DNA of 64,000 nucleotides from Caldicellulosiruptor bescii DSM 6725 (lineage in GTDB: Bacteria > Bacillota > Thermoanaerobacteria > Caldicellulosiruptorales > Caldicellulosiruptoraceae), in the NCBI RefSeq assembly GCF_000022325.1, contig NC_012034.1:576501-640500 (forward strand), given 5' to 3'. Position numbers and translations under genes: made by a program. The notes beneath the pieces were generated by a model. The model saw nothing but the letters and a program-made list of their open reading frames with translations. It did not search any database and had not been told where the DNA came from. This document shows, in pieces, positions 32,386 to 41,296 of the stretch (its first letter is position 1; every line of letters starts with the position of its first letter).

Positions 32386-32433
32386 AAAATATAACCTCTT
32401 CAAGTGAAAAGCTGAAGAGGTTATATTTTTTTT
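32386..32433 (+). terminator. Terminator after tRNA-Ser
   Basis: ATATAACCTCTTCA ... TGAAGAGGTTATAT flanked by A and T runs. It can act in both directions and also lies at the end of the convergent histidine kinase gene. Confidence 0.9.
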
Positions 32434-33293
32434 GGCAGTGTGACTGTAAAGGTTGTATATCCTTCTTCCATTTTGTCAAGTGCTCTGTATTCAGAGAAAA
32501 CATCAATTTTACCTTTGTATTTCTCAACTGTTGATTTTACAATGAAAAGACCAAGACCACTTGAATTTTTTGTAGAATATCCAAGTTCAAATATTCTATC
32601 CTTTTTACATTTGTCTATATATGACCCCGAATTTGTTACAGTGATTTCAATTTGATTACCTTCATCTTCTATATTAAGTCCGACATATTTTGAAAATGAA
32701 GATTTGGCGTAGTAAAATGCGTTGTCAATTAAGTTGCCGCAGATATTTATAAGGTCCATTGAATCAAACTTGAGATTGCTAAAGTCTACGCTGTAATGAA
32801 ATTTAAAATTTATATCGTACTTCTCAGCCAAAGCACTTTTTGCAAATATCAAAGCAGAAAGTTCTGCACATCCAAGTCCGTAAAATTTTGATGTATTTTT
32901 AAGATTTTCGCTGATTTGCTCAATATAACGAATGGCATCATCATATTTTCCAACACAAATAAGTCCCCATATAATTTGAAGGTGGTTGTTAAATTCATGT
33001 CTTTGAGCTCTTAAGATGTTTATAAAATTGTCTAATGATTTTATATTGTCTTTATAAACCTGAGTTGCCTTTAGTATACTTAGTGCTGAAAAAAGGTTTT
33101 TTACAGTGTACAAATTTAAAATTGCAAGCAGAGTAAAAGAATATATAACAAGCGTTCTTTGCCACTGAGGTATCTTTTGATGTTTTATGAATTCTGTGTT
33201 TATAAAGTATATCGAATAGATGAGCAAAAGGATAATAAGTGCAAGCAAAAAAAGCATTGATATCAAAAGCTTTGTATGGTCACTTTTCTTCAT
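32421..33293 (-). CDS. SpoOB/AgrC-type sensor histidine kinase
   Basis: 290 residues. Two transmembrane helices (about 10-32 and 47-65), a short coiled coil, then an unorthodox dimerisation/phospho-acceptor helix RAQRHEFNNHLQIIWGL (His near 98), as in the AgrC/CitA/SpoOB group. The HATPase domain has N-box NICGNLIDNAFYYA and G-box SSGLGLFIV. It lacks the large membrane sensor of AgrC, which may be supplied by the upstream overlapping membrane protein. No response regulator gene is adjacent. The role is unknown. Confidence 0.87.
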   Translation of the reverse strand: MKKSDHTKLLISMLFLLALIILLLIYSIYFINTEFIKHQKIPQWQRTLVIYSFTLLAILNLYTVKNLFSALSILKATQVYKDNIKSLDNFINILRAQRHEFNNHLQIIWGLICVGKYDDAIRYIEQISENLKNTSKFYGLGCAELSALIFAKSALAEKYDINFKFHYSVDFSNLKFDSMDLINICGNLIDNAFYYAKSSFSKYVGLNIEDEGNQIEITVTNSGSYIDKCKKDRIFELGYSTKNSSGLGLFIVKSTVEKYKGKIDVFSEYRALDKMEEGYTTFTVTLPKKI

Positions 33294-33786
33294 ACTTTAC
33301 CTCATTCCCTTTATCAATATGCGAAGGCAATATTTTGCAAATTTCAAATACCAAGTAGTTTCTACTCTTTATAATAGCAAGAAGTACGCTCATAACAGCT
33401 ATCTCAATTACAAGTGTTGTGATATCACATGCAAGCACTGATGGTGTGAGCGAGAGATTATTAGCAATTGTACTAATTATTGAATAACCTCCAAATTTCA
33501 ATGTCAGACATAAGGATTGCGAAATAAGTCCCAAGATGATACCATATAAGGGTAGAAGTCTGAGGTATAAGATATACAAAAGTATTAAGCAAGTAGTCAT
33601 AAGTATAAGTCCCAGCATAAGATTTATATGGTTGCCAAATACAATGGTATCCCAGAAAGCTTGAATAAAACTCACAACCACAACTTTTTTTATGCTGTAA
33701 CATATCCCAAACAAACTTAAAATCAGGCTTACAAGAAAAAATACTTTTAAGAAGTACAAACAGTACAACACTACATATGTAGCCAT
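33280..33786 (-). CDS. Membrane protein coupled to the histidine kinase
   Basis: 168 residues with about five hydrophobic segments (for example VFFLVSLILSLFGICYSI, MLGLILMTTCLILLYILYL, LVIEIAVMSVLLAIIK) and a charged cytosolic tail. Family not recognised. It overlaps the kinase start by 14 nt and is preceded by RBS AAAGGATGG, so the two are made together. By analogy with AgrC-type kinases, whose sensor is a multi-pass N-terminal domain, it could be a detached sensor subunit (inference). Confidence 0.75.
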   Translation of the reverse strand: MATYVVLYCLYFLKVFFLVSLILSLFGICYSIKKVVVVSFIQAFWDTIVFGNHINLMLGLILMTTCLILLYILYLRLLPLYGIILGLISQSLCLTLKFGGYSIISTIANNLSLTPSVLACDITTLVIEIAVMSVLLAIIKSRNYLVFEICKILPSHIDKGNEVKYEEK

Positions 33787-33893
33787 TGTCTACCATCCTT
33801 TATTTTTATGGATTGCAGAAACCTTCTATATGATATTATATATTTTATTTGTGTTTTATTCAAAACTTTTGTATCGATATGGGGGTAGAAAAT

Positions 33894-34790
33894 ATGAAAT
33901 TTTACAAAATAGACATTTCACACAAAAGCATTTTTGACCAATATTTTGCCGAATTTGAGCCTGAGATTGCTGACCTGACATTTACAAACCTCTTTATGTG
34001 GGATCCGTTTTATGATATTCATTTTACTGAGGAAGATGGATTTTTGCTCATCATGGCAAAGCCGTACAATCAGCCACCTTTTTTACATGGACCTGTGGGC
34101 AAAGATTTAGACAAACTTCCCATTGTTATTGAAAAAGCCAGAAGTTTTTTTGAATCTGAAGGATATAATTTCATGATAAAAAGAGCTTCTAAAAAGACAA
34201 TAGATATGCTTTCTGAGTGTAAAATGGAGTTCAAAAGTATTTTTGAAAGAGACCTTTCTGACTATGTTTACAGAGTTGAAGATTTGGTTCAGCTAAAAGG
34301 AAAAAAATATCATCCCAAAAAGAATCATATTAACAAGTTTTTAAGACTCTATTCAGAGAGATATGAGTGGAAAAAAATAGATGAAGAAATTGTAAAGCTT
34401 TGCTGGGACTTTGAATGTGAATGGTACGAAAAGAGAAATGGGAAGGAGGATATAGGGCTTACATTTGAAAAAATGGCTATAGAAAGGGCTATAAGAAATT
34501 TTGAAAAACTTTCTTATGAAGGTATGGTAATTTTTATTGATGGCAGAATAAAAGCCTTCACGTTTGGAGAACCTTTAAATAAAAATACAGTGGTCATACA
34601 TATAGAAAAGGCAGACCCGGATGTTGAAGGGCTTTATGCTTTTATTAACCAAAAATTCTTAGCAGAGTTTTGGCAGAATTATGAATTTGTAAACCGTGAA
34701 GAAGATTTGGGTAAGGAGGGAATAAGGAAGGCAAAGATGTCTTACCATCCATTCAAGTTTGCAGAGAAGTTTACTATTCTTTTTGATTAA
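33894..34790 (+). CDS. DUF2156-family GNAT-like protein
   Basis: About 298 residues resembling DUF2156, the GNAT-type acyl/aminoacyl-transferase fold found at the C-terminus of MprF-like lysyl-phosphatidylglycerol synthases. Seen: F-PEIADLTFTNLFMW near the N-terminus, YHPKKNHINKF near the centre, GMVIFIDGRIKAFTFGEPL, HIEKADPDVEGLYAFINQKFL, and a terminal REEDLGKEGIRKAKMSYHPF. No membrane segments. The ATG at 33894 follows GGGGGT; the open frame back to 33849 has no RBS. Substrate unknown. It precedes three CotS-like kinases. Confidence 0.83.
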   Translation: MKFYKIDISHKSIFDQYFAEFEPEIADLTFTNLFMWDPFYDIHFTEEDGFLLIMAKPYNQPPFLHGPVGKDLDKLPIVIEKARSFFESEGYNFMIKRASKKTIDMLSECKMEFKSIFERDLSDYVYRVEDLVQLKGKKYHPKKNHINKFLRLYSERYEWKKIDEEIVKLCWDFECEWYEKRNGKEDIGLTFEKMAIERAIRNFEKLSYEGMVIFIDGRIKAFTFGEPLNKNTVVIHIEKADPDVEGLYAFINQKFLAEFWQNYEFVNREEDLGKEGIRKAKMSYHPFKFAEKFTILFD

Positions 34791-34834
34791 CACTCACTGC
34801 AGACTTGCCATATAATGAAATTGAGCAATGAAAA

Positions 34835-35848
34835 ATGTATATTTTCATGGGAACACCTGAACTTAAGTTAGTTGAAGAGAATTATTATATAAAGATAGAT
34901 GAAATAAAACAAATAAAATCTAATGCCTATTTTGTGAAGACAAAGGATGGTAAAGAATTTTTTTTGAAGGTCAGTAGAGTTGCCAAAGACTATGTTGATT
35001 TTATTATCAAGATTTTTTCACACCTGAAAAATACAAGTTTTAAAAGCCACCTGATTGATTTTCAGAAGACCATTGACGGTGGCTTTTATTTTTTAGATGA
35101 AAACAAAAAGGTTTATCTTCTATGTAAGTGGATAGATGGCAGAAGTGCAGATTTCAGAAATGTTTATGACTTGAGAAGAGTAGTTTCAATCTTGTATCAC
35201 CTTCATTTAGCCTCACTTTCTTTTGCTGAGGAAATAAAAGATAGTTTTTATCCATCTTATCAAGAAGTGTTTTGTAGAAAGTATTCACAAGTTATCCAAA
35301 TGAAGAATATTATACATCAAAAAGATAATCTTAGCTATTTTGATGAGATATTTTTGAATGTTCTAAGTAGATTTGAAGATAGATTTGTGGAAAGCATACA
35401 TATGATAAAAAAAATTGAAGACTACTTCAAAGAAGAGAATCAAAAGGTATTAATTCATCATGATCCTGCTCATCACAATTTTATATTTTCTGAAAAAGGT
35501 GTATACCTTATCGACTTCGATTATGCGATGGTAGATTATAGTGTACATGACTTTGCAAACCTTGGTGTGAGGGTTTTGAAAACAAATGATTGGGACAGAA
35601 ATATGTTTAGAATTTATTTAAAATTTCTACAGGATAAAAATATCTTAAATAAATTCTGGTTGCAAACATTTTGGATTTTGATGTATTTCCCGCAAGAGAT
35701 TTGGCAAATTGGACTTCAGTACTATTTCGAAAAACAACCGTGGACAGAAGAGTATTTTCTCAAAAGACTTAAAGGATCAGAAAGAATACAAGAAGAAAAG
35801 GAGATGATAATTAAGGAATTTGCGGGAGGGATTTTTAAATGGCATTGA
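34835..35848 (+). CDS. CotS-like kinase (first of three)
   Basis: 337 residues of the CotS/YutH (spore coat) family, an aminoglycoside phosphotransferase-like kinase fold. The N-lobe has a lysine in KEFFLKVSR. The catalytic loop is VLIHHDPAHHNFIF (His-x-Asp with the downstream Asn) and the metal-binding motif is YLIDFDYA, so it looks active. The C-terminal WxxxxFxxRL-like motif (WTEEYFLKRLKG) is typical. It overlaps the next gene by 10 nt. The RBS is weak. Substrate unknown. Confidence 0.85.
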   Translation: MYIFMGTPELKLVEENYYIKIDEIKQIKSNAYFVKTKDGKEFFLKVSRVAKDYVDFIIKIFSHLKNTSFKSHLIDFQKTIDGGFYFLDENKKVYLLCKWIDGRSADFRNVYDLRRVVSILYHLHLASLSFAEEIKDSFYPSYQEVFCRKYSQVIQMKNIIHQKDNLSYFDEIFLNVLSRFEDRFVESIHMIKKIEDYFKEENQKVLIHHDPAHHNFIFSEKGVYLIDFDYAMVDYSVHDFANLGVRVLKTNDWDRNMFRIYLKFLQDKNILNKFWLQTFWILMYFPQEIWQIGLQYYFEKQPWTEEYFLKRLKGSERIQEEKEMIIKEFAGGIFKWH

Positions 35849-36807
35849 AACAAAAATTTAAGCTTCACTATGGCTTTGACATAAAAGAGCTCAAGAAGTT
35901 CAAAGATGGATATTTATTAAAAACAGGCAAAGAAGAATACCTTTTGAAAAAGACTAAAATGTCGCCAGCAGAAATTGTCTTTATATTTCACTGCCATCAG
36001 CATTTAAAAGACAACAGATTTGTCAATTTTGAGAAGATTATTCCCACAAAGGATGGTTGTCCTTATCTGAGAATTGACAAGGTGACATATGTGCTGATAG
36101 AACATTTTAAAAAAGAACCGGTTGAACTTTCTGAAAAACAGGTGATCAGCTGTATTGAATTTATAAATTCTTTTCATGCAGCGTCTACCAACTTAAAATC
36201 AGCTGTAGGTGCAAGATACAATGTTCAATATGGAAAAGATAGGATTACTGCACGGAATATGTATTCGATGTTCGTTAAGCTGAAAGAAAAACCTCAGCTC
36301 ATAAAAAATGAAAAGCTGAGAAACATAATTTTGAGGACAATTGACTTAAACATCGAATATGTAAAAAAAGCGTTAGAAATTTTAGAAGATGACAGGTATC
36401 TTGAGGTAATATCGCGCAGCATGCAAGAAAATAGATTCATACATGGCAAACTAACTATTTACAACATATACAAATGTTACAGTAAATTAAGACTTGCAAA
36501 TATGTTTAACTTAGAACTAAATGTGCGTGAAAAGGACATAGCCACGTTTGTGAAAAGCCTGATTAAAATAGATAAAAATTTTGATTTTGAAGAATGTATA
36601 AATAAATTTTATGTTACCTCATATGATAATTACAAAAAATGTTTAGTATTGGCTATGATACTTCTGCCATATGAGTATTTCTCTCTTCTAAAAAAAATTA
36701 TAAGATTTAGAGATTTGGACTGGGCGTCTGAAGAATTTGAAGAAAAATTTACAATTTTATGTGAAAAAGAACAATATAAAGATAAAATTTTAGCCTCCCT
36801 GCATTAA
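35839..36807 (+). CDS. CotS-like pseudokinase (second of three)
   Basis: 322 residues, clearly aligned in layout with its neighbours (KDGYLLKTGKEEYLLKKTK at the N-lobe). The catalytic loop reads FIHGKLTIYNIYK: the catalytic aspartate is lost and the DFD metal motif is replaced by other residues. It is therefore probably a catalytically dead partner or a scaffold. It is not frameshifted and keeps a strong RBS (CGGGAGGG), so it seems to be maintained. It overlaps the first kinase by 10 nt. Confidence 0.8.
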   Translation: MALKQKFKLHYGFDIKELKKFKDGYLLKTGKEEYLLKKTKMSPAEIVFIFHCHQHLKDNRFVNFEKIIPTKDGCPYLRIDKVTYVLIEHFKKEPVELSEKQVISCIEFINSFHAASTNLKSAVGARYNVQYGKDRITARNMYSMFVKLKEKPQLIKNEKLRNIILRTIDLNIEYVKKALEILEDDRYLEVISRSMQENRFIHGKLTIYNIYKCYSKLRLANMFNLELNVREKDIATFVKSLIKIDKNFDFEECINKFYVTSYDNYKKCLVLAMILLPYEYFSLLKKIIRFRDLDWASEEFEEKFTILCEKEQYKDKILASLH

Positions 36808-36852
36808 AAAAGCTGTGTGATCATATAGTTTTTAGTGGGAGGTGTTTTTGTT

Positions 36853-37845
36853 ATGATTGCTCTGAGAGAGGAGATAACTCAATTTTTTGATATAGAGGTT
36901 TTTTATTTTATGCCTATCCGTGACATTTTGGTTCTTTCAACAGACAGAGGTCTTAAGTGTTTTAAAAGAGTAGATTATTCGATAGAAACGCTTTTGTTTA
37001 TTCACGGGGGCAAAGAACACCTTGTTTCAAGAGGATTTATAGACATTGACAGGTTTAATTTAAGCAAGGAAGGCTTGCCTTATGTTATGTTGGGTGATGA
37101 AATCTATGTTCTGACAGACTGGATTGACGCGAGAGAGTGTGAACTTGAAAACCCGATAGAATTGAAAGCTGCGACAGAAAAACTTGCTATGATGCACGAG
37201 GCATCTATAGGTTATACAAATGTTCCCGAAGGTGCAAGGGTCAGAGATGATTTGGGAAAACTTTTGACTAAGTTTGAAAAGCGCTGCAATGAATTTTTGC
37301 GTATGAGAAAGATGGCAGAGAAAAAAAAGAGCATGTTTGATTACGAGTATTTATTTACATACTCATATTATTTTGATCTTGCAAAGGAAGCGCTTGAAAA
37401 ACTTAAAAATTCAAATTACTTAAAACTTTGTGATGAGGCAAGAGAAAAAAGAGGATTTATTCACAGAGATTACTCTTACCACAATATTCTCTACACTCAC
37501 GATGGTGATGTGTATATAATAGACTTTGATTATCTTACCTATGACCTTCGAATAGTTGACCTCACAAGCTTTATGCAAAAGGTGTTAAAAAGGATTCACT
37601 GGGACATAAAAACAGGTGAGAGCATCTTGAACTGGTATTCAAATGTATCGCCGCTGAACAAAGACGAGCTTGAACTTGTCTATATAATCCTGCTTTTTCC
37701 CTACAGATATTGGAAAACATGCAACAGATATTATAATGGTAAAAAGAGCTGGTCTGAAAAAGCATTTACAAACAAGCTTCATGAAGTTATTGCAGAAAAA
37801 GAATTTCACTATGATTTTATTAGGTGGCTTGAAAAACTGATATAA
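36853..37845 (+). CDS. CotS-like kinase (third of three)
   Basis: About 330 residues. Intact kinase motifs: catalytic loop FIHRDYSYHNILY and metal motif YIIDFDYLTYD. The C-terminal WSEKAFTNKLHE matches the first paralogue. The open frame begins at GTG 36835, but that codon belongs to the RBS (GGGAGGTG); ATG 36853 is the start. Last gene of the putative DUF2156-kinase transcript, closed by a strong terminator. Confidence 0.86.
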   Translation: MIALREEITQFFDIEVFYFMPIRDILVLSTDRGLKCFKRVDYSIETLLFIHGGKEHLVSRGFIDIDRFNLSKEGLPYVMLGDEIYVLTDWIDARECELENPIELKAATEKLAMMHEASIGYTNVPEGARVRDDLGKLLTKFEKRCNEFLRMRKMAEKKKSMFDYEYLFTYSYYFDLAKEALEKLKNSNYLKLCDEAREKRGFIHRDYSYHNILYTHDGDVYIIDFDYLTYDLRIVDLTSFMQKVLKRIHWDIKTGESILNWYSNVSPLNKDELELVYIILLFPYRYWKTCNRYYNGKKSWSEKAFTNKLHEVIAEKEFHYDFIRWLEKLI

Positions 37846-37912: not shown

Positions 37913-38701
37913 TTAAATTGACATCTGTTTGTTTTTATAGTATATTATCCTGAGTCCTTCTAATGTCAAGGTAGGATTTACAATCTGAATTGTTTTTGAC
38001 TCTTCAGCAATAAGCCTTGCAAGACCACCTGTTGCAACGACCTTTGCATTTATCTCACTCATTTCTTCTTTTATCCTGTTTACCATGTAATCAACAAGAC
38101 CGACATAACCATAGAGGATACCAGACTGCATAGCATGTACTGTATTTTTGCCAATTACACTTGGTGGCTTTTGAAGTTCTATTCTGTGGAGCCTGCTTGC
38201 ATGAGAAAAAAGTGCCTCTGCCGAGATTTTAATACCTGGTGCAATTGCACCACCTAAGTATTCTGATTTTCTTGAGAGAGCACAGAAAGTTGTTGCTGTT
38301 CCGAAATCAATTATTACTGCTGGACCTCCGTAAAGTTCATTTACCGCAACAGCATTGACAATTCTATCTGAACCAACCTCTTTCGGGTTTTCAGTTTTGA
38401 TGTTCAGTCCCGTCTTGATGCCTGGACCCACCACCATAGGATTTGTTCCAAAATACTTTTGTATTGCTCTTTCAAACGAATACATAATTGGTGGTACAAC
38501 AGAAGAAATTATAACATCCATTATTTCAGCTGGGTTTATACCACTGTACAGAAGCATCTGTGTCATAAGTATTCCAAATTCATCTGCAGCCTTTTCTTTA
38601 TCAGTCTTCATCCTGTAACTCGCTATTAAATCTTTCCCTTTGTAAACACCGAACACAATATTAGTATTGCCAATGTCAACAACTAAAAGTTTATCTTTCA
38701 T
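37913..38701 (-). CDS. coaX: Type III pantothenate kinase
   Basis: First step of coenzyme A synthesis. 262 residues, ASKHA fold. N-terminal phosphate loop [38 protein letters not shown] and GGAIAPGI are all CoaX signatures. RBS AGGTGAG precedes the ATG. It is the last gene of a minus-strand run with the YbjQ-like and DapL genes. Confidence 0.95.
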
Positions 38702-40292: not shown

Positions 40293-40621
40293 CAAAAACC
40301 CCTCCTTCAAAATTTAGTGTATAGCATTGTTTTATGGTGTTCTGATATGGTTATTCACAATTTGATTGCTGATCCAAGTCGATAAGGTCAAAAATAGATT
40401 TAGTGATATTTTAACATAAAACATCAGATTTATGAAAGGGTAATTTAGTTTCGAAATTTACAGCAAAACTAAACTGATTGTGCAATTTAGAAAATTTATT
40501 TTTCACATTTATTAGCAAATTTCATAAAGGGCTTCTAATTGACATACAATACATACCCATGGTATAAAAAATGTCTGGATTACATATAACACAAAAGAAA
40601 AAAGTGAGGGGGGTATGTGAG
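40293..40621. promoter_or_regulatory. Divergent spacer with promoter of the NapH-like gene
   Basis: 329 nt. On the plus strand TTGACA (40539-40544), an 18-nt spacer and TATAAA (40563-40568) form the promoter. Further upstream is an inverted repeat TTTAGTTT (40444-40451) / AAACTAAA (about 40466-40473) that might bind a regulator. No small gene was found. Confidence 0.6.
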
Positions 40622-41296
40622 ATGGAAATACTGGAAAGAAGAGATGAAAAAAGATTGAAGATGGACAAAAGTCACATTGCAAAGATATTTTTGACTTTTG
40701 TATTTTTTGGAGTTTTAATAGGCGGACTTTTTTATCCGAAAGTAGGTTTGTTTGCATTTGTGTGCATGATAGGTAGCGTTTTGCTGAGTTTTTACAAAGG
40801 AAGGTACTGGTGCTACAGGTTTTGCCCAAGAGGTGTATTTTTAGATGAGTTTATTGCAAAGGCAAGCTTTAATAAAAATATTCCTGCAGTTTTAAAATCA
40901 AAGGTTGCAAAAGCATTTATGCTTACATTTTTTGTTGTGATGATGAGTGCGAATGCTATTTTAAGCGGGGGAGATTTAGAGAGATTCACAAAAGGTGTTG
41001 TGATGCTTTTATGGGTTACAACTTTGATTGCAATAATTTTGGGAATTTTATTTAGAGCAAGAACATGGTGTGTTTTATGTCCGATGGGAACAGTTAGCGG
41101 AGTTGTGGGCAAAAAAAGAGGGATGCTCAAGATAGATGCCCAAAAATGTGTAAGCTGCAAGCTTTGCAACAAAAATTGTCCGATGGAAGTGGAAGTTTGT
41201 TATTTCAAGGAAAATGGAAACATTGAAAGTGTAAACTGTATAAAATGCGAAAGCTGCAAATTGGTATGTCCTAAAAACGCAATTGAAATGGTTTGA
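40622..41296 (+). CDS. NapH/YccM-like membrane polyferredoxin
   Basis: About 224 residues. Four membrane segments with two cysteine motifs at membrane edges (YWCYRFCPRG and TWCVLCPMG), followed by a cytosolic double [4Fe-4S] ferredoxin domain: CVSCKLCNKNCPMEV and CIKCESCKLVCPKNA. This is the NapH/CcoG-like family that passes electrons across or along the membrane; the specific partner is unknown. ATG 40622 follows GAGGGGGGT. Single-gene unit with its own promoter and terminator. Confidence 0.88.
   Translation: MEILERRDEKRLKMDKSHIAKIFLTFVFFGVLIGGLFYPKVGLFAFVCMIGSVLLSFYKGRYWCYRFCPRGVFLDEFIAKASFNKNIPAVLKSKVAKAFMLTFFVVMMSANAILSGGDLERFTKGVVMLLWVTTLIAIILGILFRARTWCVLCPMGTVSGVVGKKRGMLKIDAQKCVSCKLCNKNCPMEVEVCYFKENGNIESVNCIKCESCKLVCPKNAIEMV

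Follow-up and report, generated by a model that had tools for sequence, protein, structure and literature searches.

A CotS-family kinase–pseudokinase–kinase trio in Caldicellulosiruptor bescii and the fate it shares with sporulation genes

The window analyzed here is a stretch of 64,000 nucleotides (nt) from Caldicellulosiruptor bescii (G000:C1:576501-640500; genome G000, three contigs, 2,931,662 bases). Its list of open reading frames (ORFs) contains three CotS-family genes lying head to tail on the plus strand at 34835-37845: K1 (34835-35848, 337 amino acids [aa]), the predicted pseudokinase PSK (35839-36807, 322 aa), and K3 (listed as 36835-37845, 336 aa). The end of K1 and the beginning of PSK share exactly 10 nt, and do so in all ten genomes in which the trio is intact. 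K1 could also start at ATG 34847, which corresponds to the first start codon of most other species. For K3, the start is most likely ATG 36853 and the GTG at 36835 wrong, because the ribosome-binding site GGGAGGTG comes only after the GTG, and the ATG is usable in other species. With K3 beginning at this ATG (36853-37845), the gap between PSK and K3 is 45 nt.

The family assignment rests on TIGR02906, the NCBIfam model "CotS family spore coat protein", with a curated cut-off of 172.7 bits. The model aligned end to end with K1 (177.9 bits), PSK (111.6 bits), and K3 (372 bits), in agreement with an earlier note, made from the letters alone, that had described three consecutive CotS-like paralogues here. 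K1, which also matched PF01636 (48.3 bits), and K3 pass the cut-off; the K1 orthologues of genomes G002, G004, and G009 lie just below it (169.6-171.7 bits). PSK falls short despite alignment over the whole model and is, as judged from its sequence, a divergent CotS relative and no formal member of TIGR02906. Profile comparison of PSK with CotS by hhalign gave a probability of 99.5 over columns 6-318. K3 was matched to the structure of YtaA (CotI) of Bacillus subtilis (2q83) with an E value of 9e-31 over 275 aligned residues, and the HxD...N and DxD positions are the same in the two proteins. A search of the whole C. bescii genome with TIGR02906 returned three matches, which are the trio, and no further CotS-family gene.

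The active sites of the three proteins differ. K1 carries H-H-D...N and D-F-D and K3 carries H-R-D...N and D-F-D, and both keep the catalytic Asp of HxD, the loop Asn, and the Asp of DxD. At the same sites, PSK has H-G-K...N and N-M-F in a full-length frame. The earlier note had read these motifs, the open frame, and the overlap correctly. In K3 numbering, H210, D212, N217, D230, and D232 are present in K1 and K3, and the equivalent residues of PSK are H, K, N, N, and F; K44, H121, and D242 are kept in all three proteins. Computed from the ORF start, the H-G-K that replaces H-x-D is encoded at 36442-36450 (plus strand, codons 202-204) and the N-M-F that replaces D-F-D at 36499-36507 (plus strand, codons 221-223). 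Across the ten orthologues, PSK shows no variation at H202, G203, K204, N209, N221, M222, F223, H113, and D233; its active-site changes are therefore long established and fixed.

PSK has the features of published BSK (CotS-family) pseudokinases. As described in the available parts of Scheeff et al. (PMC2860764), these proteins have lost the catalytic Asp (D239 of YtaA) and mostly keep a structural pair, His148 and Asp269. In PSK, the Asp is replaced by K204 and the DxD residues by N221 and F223, H113 and D233 are kept, and the N-lobe is present. The same source (2010) describes a protein, BSKC6L, from C. saccharolyticus and Anaerocellum thermophilum, with an intact N-lobe and without the residues needed for activity, as in PSK. 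Anaerocellum thermophilum was the first name of C. bescii (excerpts of PMC10434631). By elimination, PSK is probably BSKC6L, since it is the only Asp-less member among the three CotS-family proteins of the genome. The pseudokinase itself has thus probably been in print since 2010; what is new is its evolution and the fate it shares with the sporulation programme. Neither the kinase–pseudokinase–kinase order, nor selection, nor shared loss with sporulation genes is described in the available parts of PMC2860764.

To follow this evolution, each trio protein was searched for separately in 12 genomes of the genus, of which G000 is C. bescii. The trio is intact and syntenic in ten of them, broken in G008, and absent from G007. 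In all 11 genomes that carry it, position and flanks are the same, with a gene of the LPG_synthase_C domain (33849-34790) before the trio and coaX (37913-38701, opposite strand) after it; a more distant flank, 40571-41296, was not found in G008. The three genes thus stand or fall together, which was the co-occurrence that the earlier note had proposed to check.

Selection was measured as the ratio of nonsynonymous to synonymous substitution rates (dN/dS; Nei-Gojobori) in a clade of eight species; distant pairs, saturated at synonymous sites, were not used. The median for PSK (28 pairs) was 0.139, compared with 0.161 for K1 and 0.053 for K3, and with 0.054 for spoIVA, 0.026 for sigG, 0.108-0.198 for spoIIIA genes, and 0.045-0.125 for neighbours. 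For the close pair G000-G006 (dS 0.06) the values were 0.144 for PSK and 0.33 for K1, and for G002-G011 they were 0.11 for PSK, 0.012 for K3, and 0.026 for spoIVA. In a neutral simulation, none of 500 runs left the PSK frame free of stops when the number of substitutions per site was 0.2 or 0.4, and 1.6% did so at 0.06; the open frame is therefore more than chance. Together with the invariant catalytic-site changes, these sequence comparisons support the proposal of the earlier note that PSK is a maintained pseudokinase, and place it under purifying selection wherever the trio is intact.

The genus is described as forming no spores (PMC3533761 and PMC10434631, available in part), and the earlier note had concluded that, if the DNA came from a Caldicellulosiruptor, these "spore coat" kinases must have another role. 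The genomes do not support this conclusion. C. bescii has spoIVA, spoIIGA-sigE-sigG, spoIIAB-sigF, spoIIIAA-AH, yabP-yabQ, and spo0A. Across the genus, SpoIVA is intact in 10 of 12 genomes, split in G008, and without a match in G007; SpoIIIAE, all of whose matches are under the curated cut-off, is likewise intact in ten, broken in G008, and missing from G007. Matches of SigG type (>400 bits) and of SigF type (>230 bits) were each found in 11 of 12 genomes, with none in G007. Spo0A is present in all 12. In the nine intact genomes fetched (G001 was left out), the spoIIIAA-AH operon is complete, and in G008 AA, AE, AF, and AH are split; spoIIGA is whole in ten genomes and split in G008. YabP departs from the pattern of shared fate: its frame is broken in G008 and open in the 11 other genomes, G007 among them. 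The earlier note had set a full sporulation programme against its reading; what was found in most species is a near-complete programme under constraint. The trio was lost or has decayed with SpoIVA and SpoIIIAE in the same two genomes, and because all three share the division into ten intact genomes, broken G008, and empty G007, the fate of the trio follows that of sporulation, in a test at the level of one clade.

Some of the genes concerned have been reported as missing. In Table 5 of a 2012 survey (PMC3533761, available in part), spoIIIAF and yabQ, and in some species spoIIIAB, are listed as absent from the genus. These three were rechecked, with ftsA, spoIIM, spoVK, spoVR, and yyaC left out. 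In C. bescii, SpoIIIAF scored 47.8 bits with Pfam (cut-off 28.3) and 25.3 with NCBIfam, below the cut-off of 61.3; SpoIIIAB scored 59 bits with Pfam (cut-off 32.5) and 37.6 with NCBIfam, below the cut-off of 146.5. Both occupy the expected positions in the operon. YabQ reached 35.1 bits with NCBIfam (cut-off 32) and 24.3 with Pfam, just below the cut-off of 27. The diverged spoIIIAF, spoIIIAB, and yabQ genes are located at L180:1947-6733 and L213:1462-2077.

Two genomes have no working trio. In G007, the matches to the upstream gene and to coaX lie ∼170 nt apart at this site, and all nine flanking genes searched for are present. In G008, the frame of K1 is shifted at least twice and the frames of PSK and K3 once each, and the close flanks are intact. 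Ten of the 17 sporulation-linked genes counted in G008 are broken (the three of the trio included) versus 0 of 12 neighbours, with a Fisher p of 0.0012 that serves as a guide only, the gene set having been assembled by hand as data came in. The count left out sigE, which has an altered C-terminal end, as well as spoIIAA, spoIIAB, a sigK-like match, and yabQ (unclear). Sequencing error was considered as the cause of these lesions and judged unlikely, as ten genes are affected and no neighbour is. In comparison with G002, the broken genes of G008 retain low dN/dS values (K1 0.137, PSK 0.075, K3 0.042, spoIVA 0.068), so the breakage is recent. The G008 loci (L087, L182, L185, L191, and L223) give a picture of early sporulation loss, in which ten linked genes have fresh frameshifts or stops and SigF, SigG, and Spo0A are intact.

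The absence or frameshifting of the middle gene in close relatives had been named in the earlier note as evidence against a maintained pseudokinase. PSK is indeed frameshifted in G008 and absent from G007, but since K1 and K3 share this fate, the loss speaks for a shared module and not against the maintenance of PSK.

Promoter-like elements were found before K1 and K3. The first (34787-34816, plus strand) reads TTAACA-N18-TATAAT or, alternatively, AACA-N16-CATATAAT. Its spacing is constant in all 11 genomes and the sequence of the spacer varies; with 11 of 12 positions, it is the best sigma-70-type match of the region, tied with one other site. The alternative form is close to a sigma-K type. 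The second element (36801-36829, plus strand) reads GCATTAA-N14-CATATAGT, and again the spacing is the same in all 11 genomes; in ten of them the box resembling a −10 element is CATATAGT, and in G008, with its broken K3, it is CTTATAGT. Both elements at first suggested boxes of the sigma-E type, but they agree with the SigE consensus only in part, and the K1 element reads better as sigma-A. By sequence, both elements can be read as sigma-A or as sporulation types. The element of fixed spacing in the 45-nt gap before the likely start of K3 suggests that K3 may also be expressed independently. No expression data for the trio were found among the papers listed in literature searches or in the available parts of PMC7071700, PMC7924749, PMC4510573, and PMC4187192.

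Taken together, the trio is probably a sporulation-linked coat-kinase module, consisting of two probable kinases and a non-catalytic partner and lost along with the sporulation programme. K1 and K3 would be catalytically active members of the APH/choline-kinase-like CotS (BSK) family, phosphorylating a substrate of the coat or surface. PSK, a predicted dead paralogue that keeps the fold, would work by binding, most likely as the partner of the co-translated K1, which it may hold or switch; alternatively, it may bind a coat target. From the fate shared with sporulation genes, the trio would be made for the spore and act on its coat. In most species it would be kept while a near-complete programme is under selection and would be lost with that programme.

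Several observations weigh against this interpretation. The K1 element is best read as sigma-A type. G007 retains Spo0A along with YabP and YabQ. G007 and G008 are sisters (support 100), and the pair is sister to G002 and G011; their loss may therefore be a single event and not two, which confines the association to one clade. In C. bescii, an IS607-like element lies between spoIIGA and sigE. The genus was still called asporogenous in 2023, and non-spore roles have been suggested for part of the BSK family (available parts of PMC10434631 and PMC2860764, respectively). An AlphaFold2 model of PSK, for which the alignment held only the three proteins of the window, reached a predicted local distance difference test score of 52 and is unusable. 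Foldseek with this low-confidence model ranked 4pdy and YtaA first (TM ∼0.24, root-mean-square deviation >20 Å), a ranking that may be taken as agreement with the sequence result and no more.

Could these genes instead be relics of a sporulation recently lost across the genus, with too little time for decay? The lack of reported spores and the insertion ahead of sigE would fit, and G008 shows that decay can be so recent that broken genes keep a low dN/dS. Against this, dN/dS is low even between species that parted recently, as in the PSK values for G000-G006 and G002-G011, and the frames of the trio, SpoIVA, SpoIIIAE, and SigG are open in ten species; a relic is unlikely. The IS607-like element (L224:5071-7180, G000:C1 ∼875070-877180, outside the window) has ORFs resembling a serine resolvase and TnpB, named by eye, and is absent from the ten other genomes compared at spoIIGA-sigE. 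It might uncouple sigE from an intact spoIIGA in the best-studied strain.

A vegetative role for the trio, for example in phosphorylating a cell-surface or sugar metabolite, with the absence from G007 and G008 reflecting general gene loss, would account for the TTAACA-N18-TATAAT element before K1 in all 11 genomes. It would also fit the Clostridium BSKC1/2/6 operon, before which no sigma-E site is reported in the available parts of Scheeff et al. (PMC2860764). Yet the losses hit sporulation genes and not neighbours, both in the G008 count and among the flanking genes of G007, and the genomes of G009 and G010 are equally small and have kept the trio. The K1 element, moreover, also has its second reading, presumably near the sigma-K type. 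These points make a vegetative role unlikely. It is highly improbable that PSK is a working enzyme whose active site departs from the norm, as are some supposed pseudokinases that transfer other groups. The constraint on the frame, the retention of H202 and N209, and the presence of K204 in all ten orthologues would be in keeping with such an enzyme. Yet PSK has lost both its catalytic Asp and its metal-binding DFD, and the retained H113 and D233 are the structural pair kept in BSK pseudokinases (Scheeff et al., PMC2860764, available in part).

Beyond the genus, TIGR02906 matched 106 of 398 genomes of the phylum, 52 of them above the cut-off; of the eight genomes listed that share the class but belong to other genera, only G238 had a match, a weak one (1.2e-4). 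A search for PSK orthologues (A1) in the 398 genomes matched 16, seven within the genus and nine weakly (E 1e-14 to 1e-6, mostly in the N-lobe). Motifs were surveyed in hand-picked CotS clusters (38 to 39 informative stretches, one ORF of <60 bits dropped), so that the numbers are counts and not rates. Of 98 CotS-type ORFs (≥60 bits) outside the genus, 76 are active-like, 15 lack the catalytic Asp, and 7 are of other kinds; 7 of the 29 tandem clusters picked combine active-like and Asp-less members. The Asp-less proteins kept H121 in 13 of 15 cases and D242 in 14 of 15. Kinase and pseudokinase neighbours are thus a recurring pattern. The most telling case is G364, in which a trio consists of a kinase, a 255-aa protein without N-lobe and DxD (with an Asp aligned with the catalytic one), and a kinase. 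A rough tree groups PSK with this 255-aa protein and an Asp-less protein of G161 (support 0.92), which fits the relation of BSKC6 to BSKC6L in Scheeff et al. In G161, two adjacent CotS-type proteins, both lacking the catalytic Asp, lie beside a long acidic ORF that may encode a coat protein (L124:1367-3380).

In B. subtilis, BSKs are packaged in the coat and regulated by sporulation, and several have lost catalysis independently (PMC2860764, available in part). The trio differs from YtaA/CotI in its setting, as the genes directly next to it include no identified cotSA/ytcC glycosyltransferase or nucleotide-sugar gene. The pairs of G276 and G362, here labeled Bacillales-like CotS/CotI pairs, also place an active-like member next to a degenerate one; the latter lacks DxD and the Asn but keeps the catalytic Asp, where PSK has Lys. 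Upstream of the trio in the window (32421-33786), a gene for a sensor kinase of Spo0B type (SPOB_a) adjoins a 168-aa ORF without a family match. The pair is kept in all 12 genomes of the genus, including G007 and G008, and is therefore placed outside the trio module.

A bolder proposal can be offered only tentatively, and we regard it as possible but doubtful: that cryptic spore formation, still under selection, is found in most species of Caldicellulosiruptor/Anaerocellum, that their coat depends on a kinase–pseudokinase–kinase complex, with PSK switching or scaffolding K1, and that the clade of G007 and G008 has just lost the trait. For an asporogenous genus, the sporulation programme is unexpectedly complete and constrained; this, and the fate that the pseudokinase shares with it, are the parts worth following. 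Of the 12 species of these extreme thermophiles, which have uses in biotechnology, ten maintain sporulation genes, coat kinases, and the pseudokinase by purifying selection, and a single clade has dropped them together. The intact species and the G007/G008 pair offer a natural comparison for the roles of coat kinases and coat pseudokinases. Spore formation in this "asporogenous" genus deserves a new look, and the question is directly testable.

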